DNA from: Nevskia sp.
GTDB taxonomy: Bacteria; Pseudomonadota; Gammaproteobacteria; Nevskiales; Nevskiaceae
Reading direction: 5' to 3'
Length of the DNA stretch: 64,000 nucleotides
Assembly: GCF_021732705.1 (NCBI RefSeq)
Contig: NZ_JAKFUM010000017.1
Location: forward strand, 1-64,000
Shown: piece by piece, positions 5,265-34,600 of the stretch
Position numbering within the stretch: the stretch's first letter is position 1
How the letters are laid out: every line of letters begins with the position of its first letter
The notes under the pieces: generated by a model
The model's input: only the letters and a program-made list of their open reading frames with translations
Databases searched by the model: none
What the model was told of the DNA's origin: nothing
Position numbers and translations under genes: made by a program

Positions 5265-6140
5265 TCAGACCGGCAGCCCGAGGTTCTTCCACAGCCGCAT
5301 CGTCGGCTCGACCTGATTGAGCGTGTAGAAGTGAATCCCCGACGCGCCGCCCTTGAGCACGGTCTCGCTCAGGCGGGTGACGACGTCGAGGCCGAAGTCC
5401 TGCAGCGCGGCCTTGTCGTCCTGCAGCTGTTCGAGGCGCAGTCGCACGTAGCGCGGGATGTCGGCGCCGCAGGCGGCGGAGAAGCGCGTCAGCTGCGCGT
5501 AGTTGGTGATCGGCATGATGCCGGCGATCACCGGAATGGTGATGTTGGCTTTTGCACACCGTTCGAGGAAATCGAAGTAGGCGTCGGCAACGTAGAAATA
5601 CTGCGTGATCGCGGCGTGAGCGCCGGCGTCGACCTTGCGCCGGAAGGCATCGAAGTCGGCTTCCGGGTTCTTCGCCTGCGGGTGCATCTCGGGGTAGGCG
5701 GCGACTTCGAGTTCGAAGGCGTCGCCATGGGTTTCGCGAATGAACGACACCAGTTCGCTGGCGTAGTGGAAATCGCCGGGTGCGCCGGTGCCCATCGCGG
5801 TCGCCGGCAGATCGCCTCGCAGTGCCACGATGCGCTTGACGCCCGCCGCCTTGTAGCGATCGAGCAGGGCCGCGATCTTGGCGCGCGACGAACCGACGCA
5901 GGTCAGATGCGGCGCCGCTTCGATGCCGGTGTTCTCGACGACCTTGACCACGGTGTCGTAGGTGCCGTCCTGATCGGAGCCGCCGGCGCCGTAGGTCACC
6001 GAGAAATACTTCGGATGCACCGCGGCGAGGGCGGACGCGATGCCGGGCAGCTTGGCGATGCCTTCCGGCGTGCGCGGCGGGAACAGTTCGAATGAAAACT
6101 GCGTTTCGTGAGGGGTGAGGGGTGAGGCGTGAGGCGTCAT
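5265..6140 (-). CDS. metF: 5,10-methylenetetrahydrofolate reductase MetF
   Basis: MetF reduces methylene-THF to methyl-THF, the methyl donor for methionine synthesis. The 291-residue protein is a flavin TIM barrel of normal length with the SFELFPPRTPEG N-terminal strand, VTYGAGGS, CVGSS, ALRGD, FYVADAYFDF and GIHFYTLNQ landmarks. It is the last gene of the ahcY operon; its ATG at 6140 overlaps the stop of the four-helix-bundle gene (ATGA). The first eleven residues, MTPHASPLTPH, are encoded by the heptamer repeat array at 6107-6134 and are not part of the MetF family; the conserved protein begins only around residue 14. The array therefore appears to have replaced the original start. Expression should follow the upstream SAH riboswitch. 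Confidence 0.95.
   Translation of the reverse strand: MTPHASPLTPHETQFSFELFPPRTPEGIAKLPGIASALAAVHPKYFSVTYGAGGSDQDGTYDTVVKVVENTGIEAAPHLTCVGSSRAKIAALLDRYKAAGVKRIVALRGDLPATAMGTGAPGDFHYASELVSFIRETHGDAFELEVAAYPEMHPQAKNPEADFDAFRRKVDAGAHAAITQYFYVADAYFDFLERCAKANITIPVIAGIMPITNYAQLTRFSAACGADIPRYVRLRLEQLQDDKAALQDFGLDVVTRLSETVLKGGASGIHFYTLNQVEPTMRLWKNLGLPV
6107..6134 (+). repeat. GTGAGG-type heptamer array, left copy
   Basis: Four tandem 7-mers of the form (C/G)GTGAGG occupy 6107-6113, 6114-6120, 6121-6127 and 6128-6134, with a degenerate continuation to about 6147. It lies in the first codons of metF and runs into the four-helix-bundle stop codon. Its orientation is opposite to the array on the other side of that gene, so the two form inverted ends. 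Confidence 0.75.
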
Positions 6141-6511
6141 GAGGCGTCCTTCTTGACCTTGAGCGAGTTGATGAGGCCGCCGAGCTTGGCGAACACCTTG
6201 TCCAGCGCCTCATCGAGATCGTCGTCATCGCCGAGCATCAGCAGGCGTCGCGCGATCTGAACCTGCGTTTCCACTTCAGAGAGCGATCCGCGGGCGACAT
6301 ACAGGAAATGAAGCAATTCGGCCCGCGATCTGCGGGCCGAACCTTCTGCGATGTTGGATGGAACGCTGACGGCAGCGCGGCGAATCTGTGCCGTCAAGCC
6401 GAAGCGTTCGTCGGGAGGGAACGAGGCGCTTGCGCGGTAGACGACAGCAACCAGATCAATGGCATCACGCCAAACCTCGAGATCATGGTGCCGCCGCGTT
6501 TCCCGCCTCAC
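6137..6511 (-). CDS. Four-helix-bundle protein (bAvd/S23 intervening-sequence family)
   Basis: A 124-residue protein of the four-helix-bundle family found in 23S rRNA intervening sequences and, as Avd, in diversity-generating retroelements. Family hallmarks are the N-terminal HDLEVWRDAIDLV helix, FPPDERFGLTAQIRRAAVSVPSNIAEGSARRS, and a helix with LLHFLYVARGSLSEVETQVQIA. Such proteins form basic pentamers that may bind nucleic acid; their function outside retroelements is unknown. No reverse transcriptase or template repeat is nearby. The GTG start at 6511 is inside a heptamer repeat array, and the stop overlaps the metF ATG. It thus sits between ahcY and metF as if inserted in the operon, flanked by inverted arrays. 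Confidence 0.88.
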   Translation of the reverse strand: MRRETRRHHDLEVWRDAIDLVAVVYRASASFPPDERFGLTAQIRRAAVSVPSNIAEGSARRSRAELLHFLYVARGSLSEVETQVQIARRLLMLGDDDDLDEALDKVFAKLGGLINSLKVKKDAS

Positions 6512-6532
6512 GCCTCACCCCTCCCGCCTCAC
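6502..6532 (-). repeat. GTGAGG-type heptamer array, right copy
   Basis: On the minus strand GTG is followed by four 7-mers: AGGCGGG, AGGGGTG, AGGCGTG, AGGCGGG. The array starts four bases after the ahcY stop and supplies the GTG start of the four-helix-bundle gene. The 24 nt from 6532 down to 6509 are identical to 32941-32964 inside cusA. Confidence 0.75.
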
Positions 6533-6535
6533 TCA

Positions 6536-7999
6536 TCAATAGCGGTAGTGATCCGGCTTGTACGGACCTTCGACCGGCACGCCGAGGTAGTCGGCCTGCT
6601 CCTGCGTGAGCTTGGTCAGCTTCACGCCGATCTGCTCCAGATGCAGCGCCGCCACTTCTTCGTCGAGCTTCTTCGGCAGACGGTAGACCTTCTTCTCGTA
6701 GACGTCCTTGTTCTTCCAGAGGTCGATCGCGGCCAGCGTCTGGTTCGAGAACGAGTTCGACATCACGAACGCCGGGTGGCCATGGGCGCAGCCGAGGTTG
6801 ATCAGACGGCCTTCGGCCAGGATGTAGATGCTGCGGCCGGTGTCGCTGAACGAGTAACGGTCGACCTGCGGCTTGATCTGGTCGCGCGTGGCGGCCGGAT
6901 CCTGATTCAGGCGATCCATCTGGATCTCGTTGTCGAAGTGGCCGATGTTGCAGACCAGCGCGTTGTTCTTCATCGCCTTCATGTGCTCGAGGCTGATGAT
7001 GTCCTTGTTGCCGGTGGCCGAGACATAGATGTCGGCAAACGGCAGCACGTCTTCGATCGTCTTCACTTCGAAGCCTTCCATCGCCGCCTGCAGGGCATTG
7101 ATCGGGTCGACTTCCGAGACGATCACGCGGGCGCCGAGGCCACGCAGGCTGAACGCCGAGCCCTTGCCCACGTCGCCATAACCGGCGACGAAGGCGACCT
7201 TGCCGGCGATCATCAGATCGGTGGCGCGCTTGATGCCGTCGGCCAGCGATTCACGGCAGCCGTACAGGTTGTCGAACTTCGACTTGGTCACCGAGTCGTT
7301 GACGTTGATCGCCGGCACCAGCAGCTTGCCCGCTTCGAACATCTGGTACAGGCGGTGCACGCCGGTGGTGGTCTCTTCGGCGACACCGCGCCAGGCGGCG
7401 GCGACCTTGGTCCAGTAGCCCGGGCGCTCGGTCTTCGTGCGGCGCAGCAGGTCCTTGATCACCTGCTCTTCATGGTTGCCCGACAGCGTGTCGATCCAGT
7501 CCGAGCCGGCTTCCATCTCGACGCCCTTGTGGATCAGCAGCGTCACATCGCCGCCGTCGTCGATCACCAGTTCCGGGCCACCGAGCGAGCCGTCCGGCAG
7601 CACGTGGGTGACGCAGTCCAGCGTGCAGTCCCAGTACTCTTCGAGGCTTTCGCCCTTCCACGCGAACACCGGCGTGCCGGCGGCGGCCACGGCAGCCGCG
7701 GCGTCGTCCTGGGTCGAGAAGATGTTGCAGGAAGCCCAGCGCACATCACCGCCGATCGCCTTCAGCGTCTCGAGCAGCACGGCGGTTTCCTTGGTCATGT
7801 GCAGCGAGCCGGTGACGCGGACGCCCTTCAGCGGCTGCAGCGGCGCGTACTTCTTGCGGATCGCCATCAGGCCGGGCATTTCTTCCTCGGCCATGCGGAT
7901 GCGCTTGCGGCCGAATTCGGCCAGCGACATGTCGCGGACCTTGAAATCGGCGACGCCGTTCTTGTGGGGGGTGGTGACGGAATTCATTACAGCGCTCAT
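6536..7999 (-). CDS. ahcY: Adenosylhomocysteinase AhcY
   Basis: AhcY hydrolyses S-adenosylhomocysteine to adenosine and homocysteine, removing the product inhibitor of methyltransferases. The 487-residue protein has the substrate and cofactor landmarks [22 protein letters not shown], the NAD-binding [37 protein letters not shown] and the strictly conserved C-terminus PDHYRY. Several Met codons lie close together; ATG 7999 has GGAG eight bases upstream and is preferred over 8005 and 7987. A very long open frame extends further upstream but crosses the riboswitch and is not coding. Expression is expected to rise when SAH builds up, through the leader at 8054-8127. The four-helix-bundle gene and metF follow in the same direction. 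Confidence 0.97.
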
Positions 8000-10991: not shown

Positions 10992-11090
10992 GGCAGCGCG
11001 CTTGCGAGGCACTGCCTCGCGCGCTGCCGAACGCCATTTCTGCCGGGGGTGAGCTTCGGCACGCTTGCGGAGCACTGCTCCGCGCCGAAG
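10992..11090. repeat. Two related compound hairpins after ppc
   Basis: Hairpin 1 has outer arms GGCAGCGCGC (10992-11001) and GCGCGCTGCC (11019-11028) and an inner stem GAGGC-ACT-GCCTC. Hairpin 2 has outer arms CTTCGGC (11054-11060) and GCCGAAG (11084-11090) and an inner stem CGGAGC-ACT-GCTCCG. Both keep a CTTGC bulge and ACT loop while the stems differ but still pair, so the structure is conserved, not the sequence. They may mark the ppc 3' end. Confidence 0.6.
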
Positions 11091-11322
11091 CGAACGCCTG
11101 CTGAGCCGAAGGCGAAGCAGGCCGGGGCGCCATCTCCTTCCGGGAACTCTCGCGCCGAAGCGAACGCCTGCTGAGCCGAAGGCGAAGCAGGCCGGGGCGC
11201 CATCTGCTTCCGGGAACTCTCGCGCCGAAGCGAACGCCTGCTGAGCCGAAGGCGAAGCAGGCCGGGGTGCCATCTGCTTCCGGGAACGCTCGCGCCGAAG
11301 CGAACGCCTGCTGAGCCGAAGG
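11081..11322. repeat. 70-bp tandem repeat, three full copies plus a partial one
   Basis: Units begin at 11081, 11151, 11221 and 11291; the last is cut at 32 bp. Copies differ by one to three bases. Each unit starts CGCGCCGAAGCGAACGCCTG and contains a GCCTGCT...AGCAGGC stem. There are no unique spacers, so it is not CRISPR. No gene is supported in this interval. Confidence 0.85.
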
Positions 11323-19964: not shown

Positions 19965-20009
19965 GGGAATCGGGAATCGTCGACACGATTTCCGGTTCCC
20001 TTTTCTTTT
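19965..20009 (+). terminator. Terminator or attenuator between gap and pgk
   Basis: Imperfect long stem from GGGAATCGGGAATCGT (19965-19980) to ACGATTTCCGGTTCCC (19985-20000), loop CGAC, followed by TTTTCTTTT. It would reduce read-through from gap into pgk. Confidence 0.7.
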
Positions 20010-21881: not shown

Positions 21882-22724
21882 ATGCGTTTTGCCGGCACCC
21901 GCGACTATGTCGCAACCGATGACCTGACCCTTGCCGTCAACGCGGCGGTCACTCTGCAGCGGCCGCTGCTGGTCAAGGGCGAACCGGGCACCGGCAAGAC
22001 TCGGCTGGCGATGGAAGTGGCGCAGGCGCTCGGCATGCCGTACTTCGAGTGGCATGTGAAGTCGACGACCAAGGCCCAGCAGGGCCTGTACGAGTACGAC
22101 GCGGTGTCGCGCCTGCGCGATTCCCAGCTCGGCGACGGCAAGGTCAAGGACATCGGCAACTACATCGTCAAGGGCAAGCTCTGGGAGTGCTTCGACTCCG
22201 AGGTCCGCCCGCTGCTGCTGATCGACGAGATCGACAAGGCCGACATCGAATTCCCGAACGACCTGCTCAGGGAACTCGACCAGATGGAGTTCTATGTCTA
22301 CGAGACCAAGCAGCTGGTCAAGGCGAAGAACCGGCCCGTGATCATCATCACCTCGAACAACGAGAAGGAACTGCCGGACGCCTTCCTGCGCCGCTGCTTC
22401 TTCCACTACATCCGCTTCCCGGACAAGGAGACGATGCAGAAGATCGTCGACGTGCACCATCCGGACATCAAGAAGAACCTGCTGAAGGAAGCGATGGAAG
22501 TGTTCTTCGGCCTGCGCGAGCTGCCCGGCCTGAAGAAGAAGCCGAGCACCTCGGAACTGATCGACTGGCTGAAGCTGCTGATGGCCGAGGACATCGACCC
22601 GGCCACGCTGCGCGAAACCAGCGCCAAGAAGACGCTGCCGCCGCTGTACGGCGCGCTGCTGAAGAACGAGCAGGATGTGCACCTGTTCGAGCGTATCGCC
22701 TTCATGGCGAGACGCTCGAACTAG
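21882..22724 (+). CDS. MoxR-family AAA+ ATPase
   Basis: A 280-residue AAA+ ATPase of the MoxR group. It has the Walker A LLVKGEPGTGKTRLA (about residue 29), Walker B LLLIDEIDKADIEFPNDLL, the sensor-1 ITSNNEKELPDAFLRRCFFHYI region and a C-terminal helical lid with LPPLYGALLKNEQDVHLFE. MoxR proteins act as chaperones that help assemble metal- or envelope-linked complexes, often next to VWA proteins; none is seen here. The last eleven residues, ERIAFMARRSN, are encoded by a palindromic repeat that recurs after the stop, so the natural C-terminus may have been altered by that repeat. Confidence 0.9.
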   Translation: MRFAGTRDYVATDDLTLAVNAAVTLQRPLLVKGEPGTGKTRLAMEVAQALGMPYFEWHVKSTTKAQQGLYEYDAVSRLRDSQLGDGKVKDIGNYIVKGKLWECFDSEVRPLLLIDEIDKADIEFPNDLLRELDQMEFYVYETKQLVKAKNRPVIIITSNNEKELPDAFLRRCFFHYIRFPDKETMQKIVDVHHPDIKKNLLKEAMEVFFGLRELPGLKKKPSTSELIDWLKLLMAEDIDPATLRETSAKKTLPPLYGALLKNEQDVHLFERIAFMARRSN

Positions 22725-22823
22725 CCGTTCCAGACTGCCGCGAGCGTATCGCCTTCATGGCGAGACGCTCGAACTAGCCGTTCCGGACCGCCAGGAACGC
22801 ATCGCGTTCACGGCATGGCGTTC
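22688..22823. repeat. Palindromic repeats at the moxR 3' end
   Basis: A 44-bp unit at 22688-22731 is repeated exactly at 22741-22784 (period 53). Each contains the hairpin CGAGCGT...ACGCTCG with an inner TCGCC/GGCGA stem around TTCAT. A third, diverged hairpin GAACGC...GCGTTC lies at 22795-22823. The first copy includes the moxR stop codon. Confidence 0.75.
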
Positions 22824-31677: not shown

Positions 31678-34600
31678 TCGCCGCGATCATCCGAGGATCG
31701 ATCGCGAACCGTGCGCTGGTGCTGATGGTCACCGCGCTGCTCGCGCTGTGGGGCGTGCATGCGGTGCGCGCGACGCCACTCGACGCGATCCCGGACCTTT
31801 CGGACACGCAGGTCATCATCCGCACCAGCTGGCCGGGGCAGGCGCCGCAGGTGGTCGAGGATCAGGTCACCTATCCGCTGACGACGACCATGCTGTCGGT
31901 GCCCGGCGCGCGCACCGTGCGCGGCTATTCGATGTTCGGCGATTCGTTCGTCTATGTGATCTTCGACGATCACACCGATCTCTACTGGGCGCGTTCGCGC
32001 GTGCTCGAGTATCTGAACCAGGTCAGCGGACGCCTGCCGCCGGCCGCGAAGCCGACGCTTGGCCCCGATGCCACCGGCGTGGGCTGGATCTACGAATACG
32101 CGCTGGTCGATCGCAGCCATCGTCTGGACATCTCGCAGCTGCGCGCGATCCAGGACTGGTTCCTGAAGTTCGAGCTGAAGAGCGTGCCGAACGTCGCCGA
32201 AGTCGCCAGCGTCGGCGGCCTGGTCAAGCAGTATCAGATCGTGCTCGATCCGGACCGGCTGCGGGCGCTGAACATCCCGATCGCCGCCGTGGTCGACGCC
32301 ATCAAGGCCAGCAACAACGAGGCGGGCGGCTCGGTGCTGGAGTTGGGCGAAGTCGAATACGCGGTGCGCGCCAGCGGCTATCTCCAGTCGCTCGACGACT
32401 TCCGCGCCGTGCCGATCAAGCTCGGGCCGAACGGCGTGCCGGTGCTGCTGGGCGATGTCGCCCGCGTGCAGATCGGGCCCGAACTGCGCCGCGGCGTTTC
32501 GGAACTCGACGGCAGCGGCGAAGCGGTCGGCGGCATCATCGTCATGCGGTCCGGCGAGAACGCACTGGCCACGATCCGCGCCGTGCGCGCGAAACTCGAC
32601 GCGCTGAAGCCGGGCCTGCCGGCCGGCGTCGAAGTGGTGCCGACCTACGATCGCTCGGAACTGATCCTGAACGCCGTCGGCACGCTGAAGGCACGGCTGA
32701 TCGAGGAAATGATCATCGTCGCCGTGGTCTGCGCGCTGTTCCTGTTCCATCTGCGCTCGGCGTTCGTCGCCATCGTCAGCCTGCCGCTCGGCATCGTCGC
32801 GGCGTTCGCGGTGATGAGGGCGCAGGGCGTCAATGCCAACATCATGTCGCTCGGCGGCATCGCGATCGCGATCGGCGCGATGGTCGACGCGGCCGTGGTG
32901 ATGATCGAGAACGCGCACAAGCATCTGGAAGCTGTGAGGCGTGAGGCGGGAGGGGTGAGGCGTGGCGAGCTGCCTTTTGCCGAGCGCTTGCGCGTCATCA
33001 CCGAATCGGCCGCGGAAGTCGGCCCGGCGCTGTTCTTCTGCCTGCTGATCATCACCCTGAGCTTCGTGCCGGTGTTCACGCTCGAAGCGCAGGAAGGCAA
33101 GCTGTTCGGACCGCTGGCGCTGACCAAGACCTATGCGATGGCCGCTGCAGCCGGCTTGTCGATCACGCTGATTCCGGTGCTGATGCTGTACTTCATCCGC
33201 GGCCACATTCCGGATGAGCAGCAGAACCCGCTGAGCCGTGCGCTGATTGCGCTGTACCGGCCGGCGCTGCGGGCAGTGCTGCGCTTTCCGAAAGTGACGC
33301 TGACGCTGTCGGCCCTGTTGCTGGCGTCGGCGATCATGCCATTGGCGAAGCTCGGCACCGAGTTCATGCCGCCGCTGGTCGAGGGCGATCTGCTGTACAT
33401 GCCGTCGGCCTTGCCCGGGCTCTCCGCCGACAAGGCCTCGCAGCTGATGCAGCAGACGGACCGGCTGATCATGCAGTTCCCGGAAGTCGAGCGCGTGTTC
33501 GGCAAGGCCGGCCGTGCCGAGTCCGCGACCGATCCCGCCGGGCTCGAAATGTTCGAGACCACGATCCGCTTCAAGCCGCGTTCGGCCTGGCCGGATCAGG
33601 GCAAGTCGCAGGATGCGCTGATCGACGAGCTGAACGCCGCGCTGAACATTCCGGGGCTCGCCAACCTCTGGGTGCAGCCGATCCGCAACCGCATCGACAT
33701 GCTGTCCACCGGCATCAAGAGCCCGGTCGGCGTGAAGATCGCCGGGGCCGATCTGAAGGTGATCGAGCAGATCGGCACCGAGATCGAGACCGTGCTGAAG
33801 GACGTGCCCGGCACGCGCTCGGCCTATGCCGAACGCGTGCGTGGCGGCCGTTATGTCGATGTGCGGCCGGACCGCGCGAAGGCGGCGCGCTACGGCCTGA
33901 GCATCGCCGACGTGCAGCAGGTGGTCAGCCTCGCGATCGGCGGCGAGAACATCGGCGAGACCATCGAAGGCCGGCAGCGCTTCCCGATCAACCTGCGCTA
34001 TCCGCGCGAACTGCGCGATTCCGTGGCCAGCCTCCGCGTGCTGCCGATCGTCACGGCCGGTGGCGCCACGATCACGCTCGGGGAGGTCGCCGAGATCGCG
34101 ATCAGCGATGGCCCGCCGCAGCTCAAAAGCGAGAACGCGCGTCTGAACGGCTGGGTCTATGTCGACATCGCCGGCGGCATCGGCGGCCGCGATCTGGGCG
34201 GCTACGTGCGCGAAGCGCAGGCGCAGGTCGCCGCCCGCGTGACGCTGCCGCCCGGCTATTCGGTGACCTGGAGCGGGCAGTTCGAGTATCTCGAACGCGC
34301 GTCGAAGCGCCTGCAGCTCGTCGTGCCGTTCACGCTGTTCATCATCCTGATCCTGCTGTACCTGACGTTCCGCGCGTTCACGCCGGCACTGCTGATCATG
34401 GCGACCTTGCCGTTCGCGCTGATCGGCGGGCTCTGGCTGCTGCTGGCGCTTGGCCACAACCTGTCGATCGCGTCCGCCGTCGGCTTCATCGCGCTGGCCG
34501 GCGTCGCGGCAGAGTTCGGCGTGATCATGCTGCTGTATCTCGATCAGGCGATCGCCAAGCGGGGCGCTGCGCTGACGCGCGCGAGCCTGATCGACGCGAT

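Follow-up and report, generated by a model that had tools for sequence, protein, structure and literature searches.

The closest described relatives of the locus analysed here are the intervening sequences of 23S rRNA genes. Those with an S23p open reading frame (ORF) are called selfish elements; in a published example, which RNase III cuts, the ORF follows two to four heptamers and there is a stem of 28 bp (PMC4990558; this and the other papers are cited from excerpts). We describe a related arrangement in a 64,000-nt stretch of Nevskia sp. DNA (contig NZ_JAKFUM010000017.1, positions 1 to 64,000; hereafter the window), where an S23 gene bracketed by inverted heptamer arrays lies in a protein operon between ahcY and metF. 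We suggest that the segment 6107–6532 is probably a copy of a widespread, homing-like mobile element of about 0.4 kb, which has inverted arrays of 7- or 8-nt units as termini and S23 as its sole gene. It is mostly found between genes of the same orientation as itself, and it encodes no transposase, recombinase or reverse transcriptase.

The S23 family is widespread and is annotated as a ribosome-related protein or, in the excerpts of two papers, tied to CRISPR or immunity. It is present in rRNA insertions of Candidate Phyla Radiation (CPR) bacteria (PMC11270868), and cas loci contain 18 genes of the family (23S_rRNA_IVP), frequently together with cas4 or cas6 (PMC3936711). PF05635, the Pfam family of S23, is related to Avd and is the commonest Pfam family in aggregated immunity-linked data (PMC10053308). 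Heptamer arrays are described separately: the GGGAATC and GGGGA(C/T)T arrays of Xanthomonas and Nostoc are mostly intergenic and often of four units, and two Xanthomonas genomes contain 70 and 75 inverted pairs of convergent orientation. They are treated as G-quadruplex repeats, ‘generally’ unassociated with mobile elements, and neither ‘S23’ nor ‘four helix’ occurs in the main text (PMC4692102). In searches of an open-licence full-text collection, which holds no bioRxiv and few subscription papers, no article turned up in which S23 genes beyond rRNA are connected with flanking heptamer arrays.

The genes of the locus are on the minus strand. The S23 gene (6137–6511) encodes a four-helix-bundle protein of 124 aa, which matches PF05635 (E 2.7e-32, 111.6 bits vs the curated cut-off of 33.8) and TIGR02436 (E 4.5e-32, 110.5 bits vs 24). 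Its AlphaFold2 model (pLDDT 94) consists of four helices, and the best Foldseek match in the PDB is the S23 relative 2gsc (TM 0.81), followed by 2rld and phage Avd 4dwl. The 2gsc structure contains five chains and is described as a homopentamer (PMC4990558). Upstream is ahcY (6536–7999, start position by eye; PF05221, E 4.5e-142), and downstream is metF (5265–6140; PF02219, E 4.5e-85). The 5′ arm (6504–6532, minus strand) is a tandem array of GTGAGGC-type heptamers, which reads inward and lies directly after the ahcY stop. The 3′ arm (6107–6137, plus strand) is the inverted GTGAGGC-type heptamer, which reads CCTCACG on the minus strand and is translated as the MetF N-terminus. Tandem Repeats Finder gives both arrays a period of 7, with 4.1 and 4.4 copies, respectively. 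The arms of 29 nt are 93% complementary and 367 nt apart; their arrays are partly degenerate, with GTGAGG[CG] and GGGAGGG units.

The arrays are shared with the coding sequences at both ends. On the minus strand ahcY ends with TAT TGA (stop 6538–6536), followed by TGA GTGAGGCGGGAGGGGTGAGGCGTGAGGCGGGAAACG..., and the predicted GTG start of S23 is within the last heptamer of this array. At the other end the strand reads ..GCCTCATGACGCCTCACGCCTCACCCCTCACCCCTCACGAAACG, where the stop codon of S23 and the predicted ATG of metF (6140) overlap and the first ~11 metF codons are array-encoded as MTPHASPLTPH, so that this predicted start is inside the element. Hence, the layout given by the original prediction is confirmed throughout, from the four-helix-bundle gene between ahcY and metF and the oppositely oriented arrays at its ends to the GTG start supplied by the 5′ array and the S23 stop, metF ATG and eleven codons carried by the 3′ array, with both starts being predicted ones. 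The space between the arms is taken up by this ORF, for which PF05635 is the sole match, with no transposase, and the PF05635/TIGR02436 profile searches matched no nuclease domain in the S23 gene. It is the single PF05635 match of the 4.53-Mb draft genome.

This anatomy is close to that of the 23S rRNA intervening sequences, with the same protein family, inverted terminal repeats and heptamers upstream of the ORF (PMC4990558). The terminal inverted repeats around the S23 ORF of the window form a stem in the predicted fold of the module. Unlike those sequences, the window element lies in a protein operon rather than within an rRNA gene, has the predicted S23 start in the array, contains the start of the downstream host gene, and is accompanied by dispersed gene-less copies. 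Copies in rRNA were also found: genome G276 has two S23 genes within 23S rRNA (RF02541, 1675 and 1665 bits) with identical printed flanks; one of the two was measured and has inverted heptamer arms TCAGGAATCAGA... Given this shared anatomy, the S23-bearing intervening sequence appears to be one home of the element, and it would be the same element residing within an rRNA gene. We assign the protein to the S23 family and regard the element as a new variant of the S23-type intervening sequence, one that resides in operons.

The association of S23 genes with inverted arrays extends across phyla. We collected 127 S23 loci: 17 from the family (of 19 matches; L048 and L049, each half of a single broken S23 gene, are left out), the best 80 of at least 581 confirmed loci of species genomes, and 30 from a phylum sample of 299 genomes, 52 of which have an S23 match. 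These are high-scoring members and not a random sample; by record title they belong to Proteobacteria, Bacteroidota, Acidobacteria, Planctomycetes, Firmicutes, CPR lineages and others. Inverted arms, sought with no period assumed, flank the gene at 88 of the 127 loci (12/17 family, 57/80 genome contigs, 19/30 phylum sample), vs 1 of 254 same-locus controls and 15 of 500 mixed pairs. Period-7 arrays occur within 150 nt of S23 upstream at 42 and downstream at 64 of 126 loci, vs 9 of 508 control stretches; period-8 arrays occur at 9/126 on each side (3/508 controls), and any other period between 4 and 12 at no more than 2/126. With a less strict array cut, for which there is no separate control, 107 of the 127 loci have an array on at least one side and 69 have arrays of the same period on both. 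In 50 of these 69 the arms are inverted copies of one unit with 0–1 mismatch, vs 5% of 3422 arm pairs taken across elements. Among the 20 array-less loci at this cut, 19 (L042 omitted) have no rRNA match.

The unit is 7 nt long in 80 elements and 8 nt in 15, the octamers being found, for example, in Cloacimonadota, Calditrichaceae and CPR loci. It varies among elements and is mostly identical within one element. Thus, the expectation that other copies of the protein family would be found beside the same heptamer holds for heptamers as a class, across phyla, and fails for the particular unit, as many different ones are used. The array-flanked relatives, usually with other repeats, point to a widespread and unrecognised kind of mobile DNA. 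Inverted arms are also present at 36 of 47 S23 loci in IMG/VR contigs; some of these loci are near-duplicates, and the contigs may include host DNA. The S23 protein of the window has no match in 50,697 phage genome records. One contig (L281, G181:C331) has two S23 genes that differ from each other but carry similar arrays of the GTGAGAT type, no more than ~1.6 kb apart.

Plasmids provide occupied and empty versions of the same site. S23 is present in 30 of 72,556 plasmid records, mostly of Nostocales, and inverted arrays are found at all 8 plasmid loci read by eye, two of which are one homologous pair. At site A, Trichormus (two records) and Scytonema plasmids carry S23, while six plasmid records of 97.5–97.9% identity, three of which were read, are empty. 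The empty site reads AAAAAGTAATTAACAAATAA and the occupied one AAAAAGTAAT, element, GTAATTAACAAATAA, with GTAAT at both element ends. The copy at this site in a Nostoc plasmid (92%) is decayed. Occupied and empty sites were compared at six further plasmid junctions, and at a TraM-type junction the occupied, empty and gene-less states are all present. Where other plasmids have S23, the plasmid of Nostoc sp. ATCC 53789 (L235) has a gene-less inverted pair; with its nearly identical left boundary, this pair is perhaps a deletion derivative. The original prediction left a choice between a mobile and a domesticated module. The occupied and empty sites speak for mobility, and nothing was found in favour of domestication.

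Gene names ahcY, metF, nuoC-nuoD and dnaK-dnaJ, as well as the prk gene and the 3-hydroxyisobutyrate dehydrogenase-type gene, are supported by Pfam; nuoI-nuoJ, carA-carB, rmlA, yebC-ruvC, pnt, ndk, rpe, argF, acetaldehyde dehydrogenase, acyl-CoA dehydrogenase and RND are named by eye from protein ends, with Pfam support (ferredoxin domains) for the first gene of nuoI-nuoJ only. The nuoC-nuoD junction was followed in one genus of another class of the same phylum (61 genomes, 58 with a match, best 30 loci read). S23 is present at 6 of these 30 loci, with three unit types, and 20 have no array and only 23–33 nt separating the stop of nuoC from a conserved codon of NuoD; 2 have another insert, and in 2 the nuoC end was not found. 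NuoD of the six occupied loci is 93.5–97.4% identical, but their S23 proteins are only 53–72% identical between the three unit types (one of them being a 75-residue stretch). Therefore, the junction was entered at least three times independently. The same site is thus occupied in some relatives, empty in others and repeatedly acquired, as for homing elements; from the sequences, this may reflect either homing-like behaviour or repeated transfer via recombination of the flanking genes.

A tree of 38 S23 proteins, in which 9 of 35 inner branches are well supported, has clades that follow the junction: ahcY-metF of five genera (88/81), nuoI-nuoJ (98/97), dnaK-dnaJ (97/84) and the copies on the acyl-CoA-dehydrogenase side (100/99). 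S23 lineages thus stay at or return to one site at several junctions, which makes the element more homing-like and less like a promiscuous transposon.

At the ahcY-metF junction itself the gene and arrays are not kept among relatives. We found metF in 15 of the 18 genomes of the genus and examined 16 metF loci, leaving out a 17th with a 25-residue match; 14 of them, in 13 genomes, gave an ahcY-metF junction. Among these junctions S23 is present only in this genome, so that neither this comparison nor that of the other family members refutes the original prediction. G023 has a gene-less inverted array pair, 11 junctions fully read by eye have no arrays, and one of 950 nt (L058) was seen in part only. 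In the relatives metF starts with unrelated codons after an ordinary intergenic region, which fits the predicted takeover of the metF start. Other genera of the family do have S23 at ahcY-metF, with the units GGGAGAC (L036), GGGAATC (L041), GTGAGGC (L040) and GTGAGGT (L046). Between this genome (G000) and G039, which belong to different genera, S23 is 79% identical and MetF 69.5%; in other pairs S23 identity is similar to or below that of MetF. Two of the 11 array-free junctions of the genus, in G011 and G017 (L060, L061), contain an acetyltransferase-like gene, named by eye; hence, this junction accepts more than one kind of insert.

The same unit is dispersed in this genome without the gene. 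The pattern GTGAGGNGTGAGG occurs 41 times and its backwards reading 0 times, so that the number is beyond chance; these counts come from fixed-pattern searches, which miss degenerate arrays. Besides the S23 element the hits fall in 13 places, all gene-less: 10 inverted array pairs, one of which (C16:12768) has a degenerate left arm, 2 single arrays, in an RND-type gene and at the end of an argF-like gene (names by eye), and 1 place at a contig end. The fillers between the arms, as cut by script, are about 12–90 nt long and by eye look unrelated. The array in the RND-type transporter gene lies in the window (32934–32964, plus strand); this genome and G016 have in common both this array and the one at ndk, which are missing from G019, G013 and G022. 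Similarly, the inverted pair at the pnt-like junction is shared with G016 and absent in G019, where the neighbouring segment is 98% identical, and in G022; in G013 this junction is at a contig edge.

Unit and protein change together. Among pairs of equal unit length, the unit is shared in 14/14 at ≥80% protein identity, 8/16 at 70–80%, 34/227 at 60–70% and about 4% below 60%. The dispersed arrays mostly follow the unit of the resident S23 element: genomes with a GTGAGG-unit S23 have GTGAGG/GGGAAT hits of 41/0 (G000), 29/0 (G003), 130/0 (G023) and 34/0 (G039), with weak cases of 4/0 (G034) and 1/0 (G033), and the contrasting genomes have 0/71 (G049) and 6/13 (G030). Across 58 genomes of the family, four or more GTGAGG hits are found in 10/15 with S23 vs 8/43 without (Fisher p 0.001).

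We suggest the following sequence of events, with array-guided joining of broken ends as our favoured guess for the mechanism. In step 1, S23 would be translated from the host operon transcript, for which the 5′ array, as read from the sequence of this copy, can supply a predicted start codon. In step 2, the S23 ring, a pentamer in 2gsc, may bind its own array unit; we infer this from the joint change of unit and protein. In step 3, S23 would bring the arrays to a broken or single-stranded target, where host repair enzymes may join or extend the ends. Such joining would leave variable small duplications or losses and no fixed target duplication, the variability being seen at four plasmid sites. 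In step 4, the same activity may act in trans and spread or keep gene-less inverted pairs of the same unit, as suggested by the mostly matching unit of the dispersed copies. In step 5, copies would survive, presumably by selection, mainly at gene junctions in the sense orientation, because many 5′ arms have stops in every frame and many 3′ arms are open, which leaves the neighbours translatable.

A more speculative form of this proposal is possible, though we hold it with considerable doubt. The S23 elements would be a separate class of mobile DNA, in which a ring protein free of catalytic domains acts together with G-rich arrays built onto, or annealed to, broken 3′ ends, somewhat as telomere repeats are. 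The reasons for it are the predominance of G over C in the 5′ arms (98/103), the variable target sites and the unrelated-looking fillers. Tentatively, and only jointly with this idea, the arrays themselves might be the mobility module, and the rRNA, Xanthomonas/Nostoc and cas copies might come from one process.

Several points weigh against a mobile, homing-like element. No transposition has been observed and no mobilising enzyme is known; steps 2–4 are inferred, the observations being the element anatomy, the S23–array association and the presence/absence patterns. The window site is not a clean insertion, as the element replaces the relatives' intergenic region and metF start and no clean empty site exists there; clean insertion is found elsewhere. 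Only one of the four measured plasmid sites (A) has a duplication, of 5 bp and possibly microhomology, and 11, 32 and 16 nt of sites B, F and G, respectively, are apparently missing or divergent; at the cas6-cas4 junction of Anabaena the entire intergenic region is unlike that of a 98.7% relative. The arm test fails at 39 of the 127 S23 loci, and L038 (G003, carA-carB by eye) has an S23 gene without any recognisable array, being a candidate for an old or domesticated copy. In the tree, with its few well-supported branches, the nuoC-nuoD copies mix with those on the acyl-CoA-dehydrogenase side, the cas6-cas4 pair is ungrouped and the prk pair is not resolved. As to the units, G006 has an S23 unit GGGAGAC yet 40 GTGAGG hits, G050 has another unit yet 18 GTGAGG and 35 GGGAAT hits, while G016 (68 GTGAGG, genome 91% complete) and G014 (56 GGGAAT) have dispersed arrays and no S23 match. 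The Fisher test of GTGAGG hits against S23 treats related genomes as independent, and some of the hits (4 in G000) come from the S23 element. The co-variation of unit and protein may reflect common descent only.

The orientation of the element bears on both its survival and an RNA-based explanation. S23 is co-directional with both neighbours at 89 of the 97 loci having both flanks called; the other 8 have convergent (4) or divergent (3) flanks or are antisense to both (1), and 30 loci were not called. The coding-strand caller was chosen after failures on 21 known loci, so that the fair count is the 68 of 76 outside the tuning set. Two earlier callers, which gave 21/21 and 19/19 on AT-rich plasmids, were wrong on known GC-rich genes and were discarded. 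Two plasmid copies, including the one at an nrdB-nrdA-type junction, are antisense to both neighbours by reading. In the inward reading of the 5′ arm, G outnumbers C in 98 of 103 elements, a set that includes homologous copies. Stops in all three frames are present in 43/103 of the 5′ arms, and 62/103 of the 3′ arms are free of stops in every frame. Hence, a copy can provide the end of the upstream gene and be translated on into the downstream one.

The arrays might instead be kept for pairing in the transcript, with RNase III cutting the S23 message out of the operon mRNA and mobility being incidental. The window module does fold with one long array stem (z −4.9 vs 100 shuffles), the rRNA copies have a like anatomy, the published intervening sequence with heptamers and a stem is cut by this enzyme (PMC4990558), and S23 is mostly in the sense orientation. 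However, any inverted arrays yield a strong stem. The arm mismatches comprise 74 G-U-compatible vs 114 incompatible transitions; since G-U pairs are not favoured, there is no sign of selection for RNA pairing. The two antisense plasmid copies argue in the same direction, and independent insertions and dispersed gene-less pairs are left unexplained. We consider an RNA element unlikely.

Small dispersed inverted-repeat DNA at gene ends is also typical of repetitive extragenic palindromic (REP) elements, bacterial interspersed mosaic elements and miniature inverted-repeat transposable elements (MITEs), presumably moved in trans, and REP hairpins are moved in trans by a Y1/HUH transposase of the REP-associated tyrosine transposase (RAYT) type. 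Here, unlike in these systems, the termini are tandem 7/8-nt arrays with a lineage-varying unit, and the partner gene is S23 rather than a Y1 transposase. A host Y1/HUH enzyme, RAYT or IS200-like, could still move the array hairpins in trans with S23 as passenger or regulator, and the gene-less hairpins look like REP or MITE debris. Y1_Tnp is found in 13/15 family genomes with S23, including this one, two of the 13 being below the family cut-off, but also in 29/43 genomes without S23 (Fisher p 0.19). It was not found in the element-carrying G006 and G010 (the latter 76% complete), and the tendency of the unit to track the S23 lineage is not explained by a passenger S23. This makes the explanation rather improbable.

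A reverse transcriptase acting in trans, with S23 as a free-living cousin of Avd and movement via an RNA copy, is quite improbable as well. The fold is that of Avd, the accessory protein of diversity-generating retroelements (DGRs), with 4dwl_C matched at Foldseek probability 1.00, TM 0.72 and E 0.16; the matches to 4dwl and to the DGR ribonucleoprotein chains 8ub7 and 8ub8 have probabilities of 0.99–1.00 and E ≥0.16. The sense orientation and variable target-site changes would also fit. Unlike a DGR, the element has no reverse transcriptase, and RVT_1 was not found in the draft genome of the window, where movement may be old; in the family it occurs in 5/15 genomes with S23 vs 18/43 without. 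Thus, neither RVT_1 nor Y1_Tnp co-occurrence supports a required helper, and either may have had a past role. Finally, slippage-made microsatellites gathered at gene ends beside old, vertically inherited S23 operon genes are scarcely credible: array length does vary by 14 nt between close copies (L186 vs L193) and some S23 clades follow the junction, but slippage does not make inverted copies flanking one gene family (88/127 vs 1/254), leaves the restriction to periods 7 and 8 unexplained, and is largely contradicted by the occupied/empty pairs and by S23 of 53–72% identity beside NuoD of 93.5–97.4%.

For a mobile S23 element the consequences extend beyond this locus. An S23 gene in a defence or metabolic operon may be there by insertion, and its presence is not in itself evidence of a function in that pathway; such insertions can also replace the stop and start codons of host genes. 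If most copies sit in array-bounded insertions, the rRNA intervening sequences, the heptamer-rich genomes and the cas-locus S23 genes become one question, namely how a protein with no known catalytic domain moves or maintains an array-bounded element. At cas loci, two cas6-cas4 copies and one cas10-cmr3 copy are flanked by arrays, which are inverted in L184, less regularly so in L286, and partly direct in L200. These copies look like element insertions, whereas in the literature the genes are listed as an interesting cas-associated function (PMC3936711). The 5′ array tract of L184, from an Anabaena sp. 90 plasmid (cas6-cas4), exceeds 250 nt and mixes GGTGACA- and GGGAACA-type units.

Other repeats are present in the window. 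Two tandem GGGAATC units lie at 19965–19979; no exact three-unit GGGAATC match occurs in this genome, and this heptamer is dispersed in other genomes of the family. Longer tandem repeats are a 70-nt unit in 3.5 copies at 11081–11322 (98%) and a 53-nt unit in 2.4 copies at 22688–22814 (89%).

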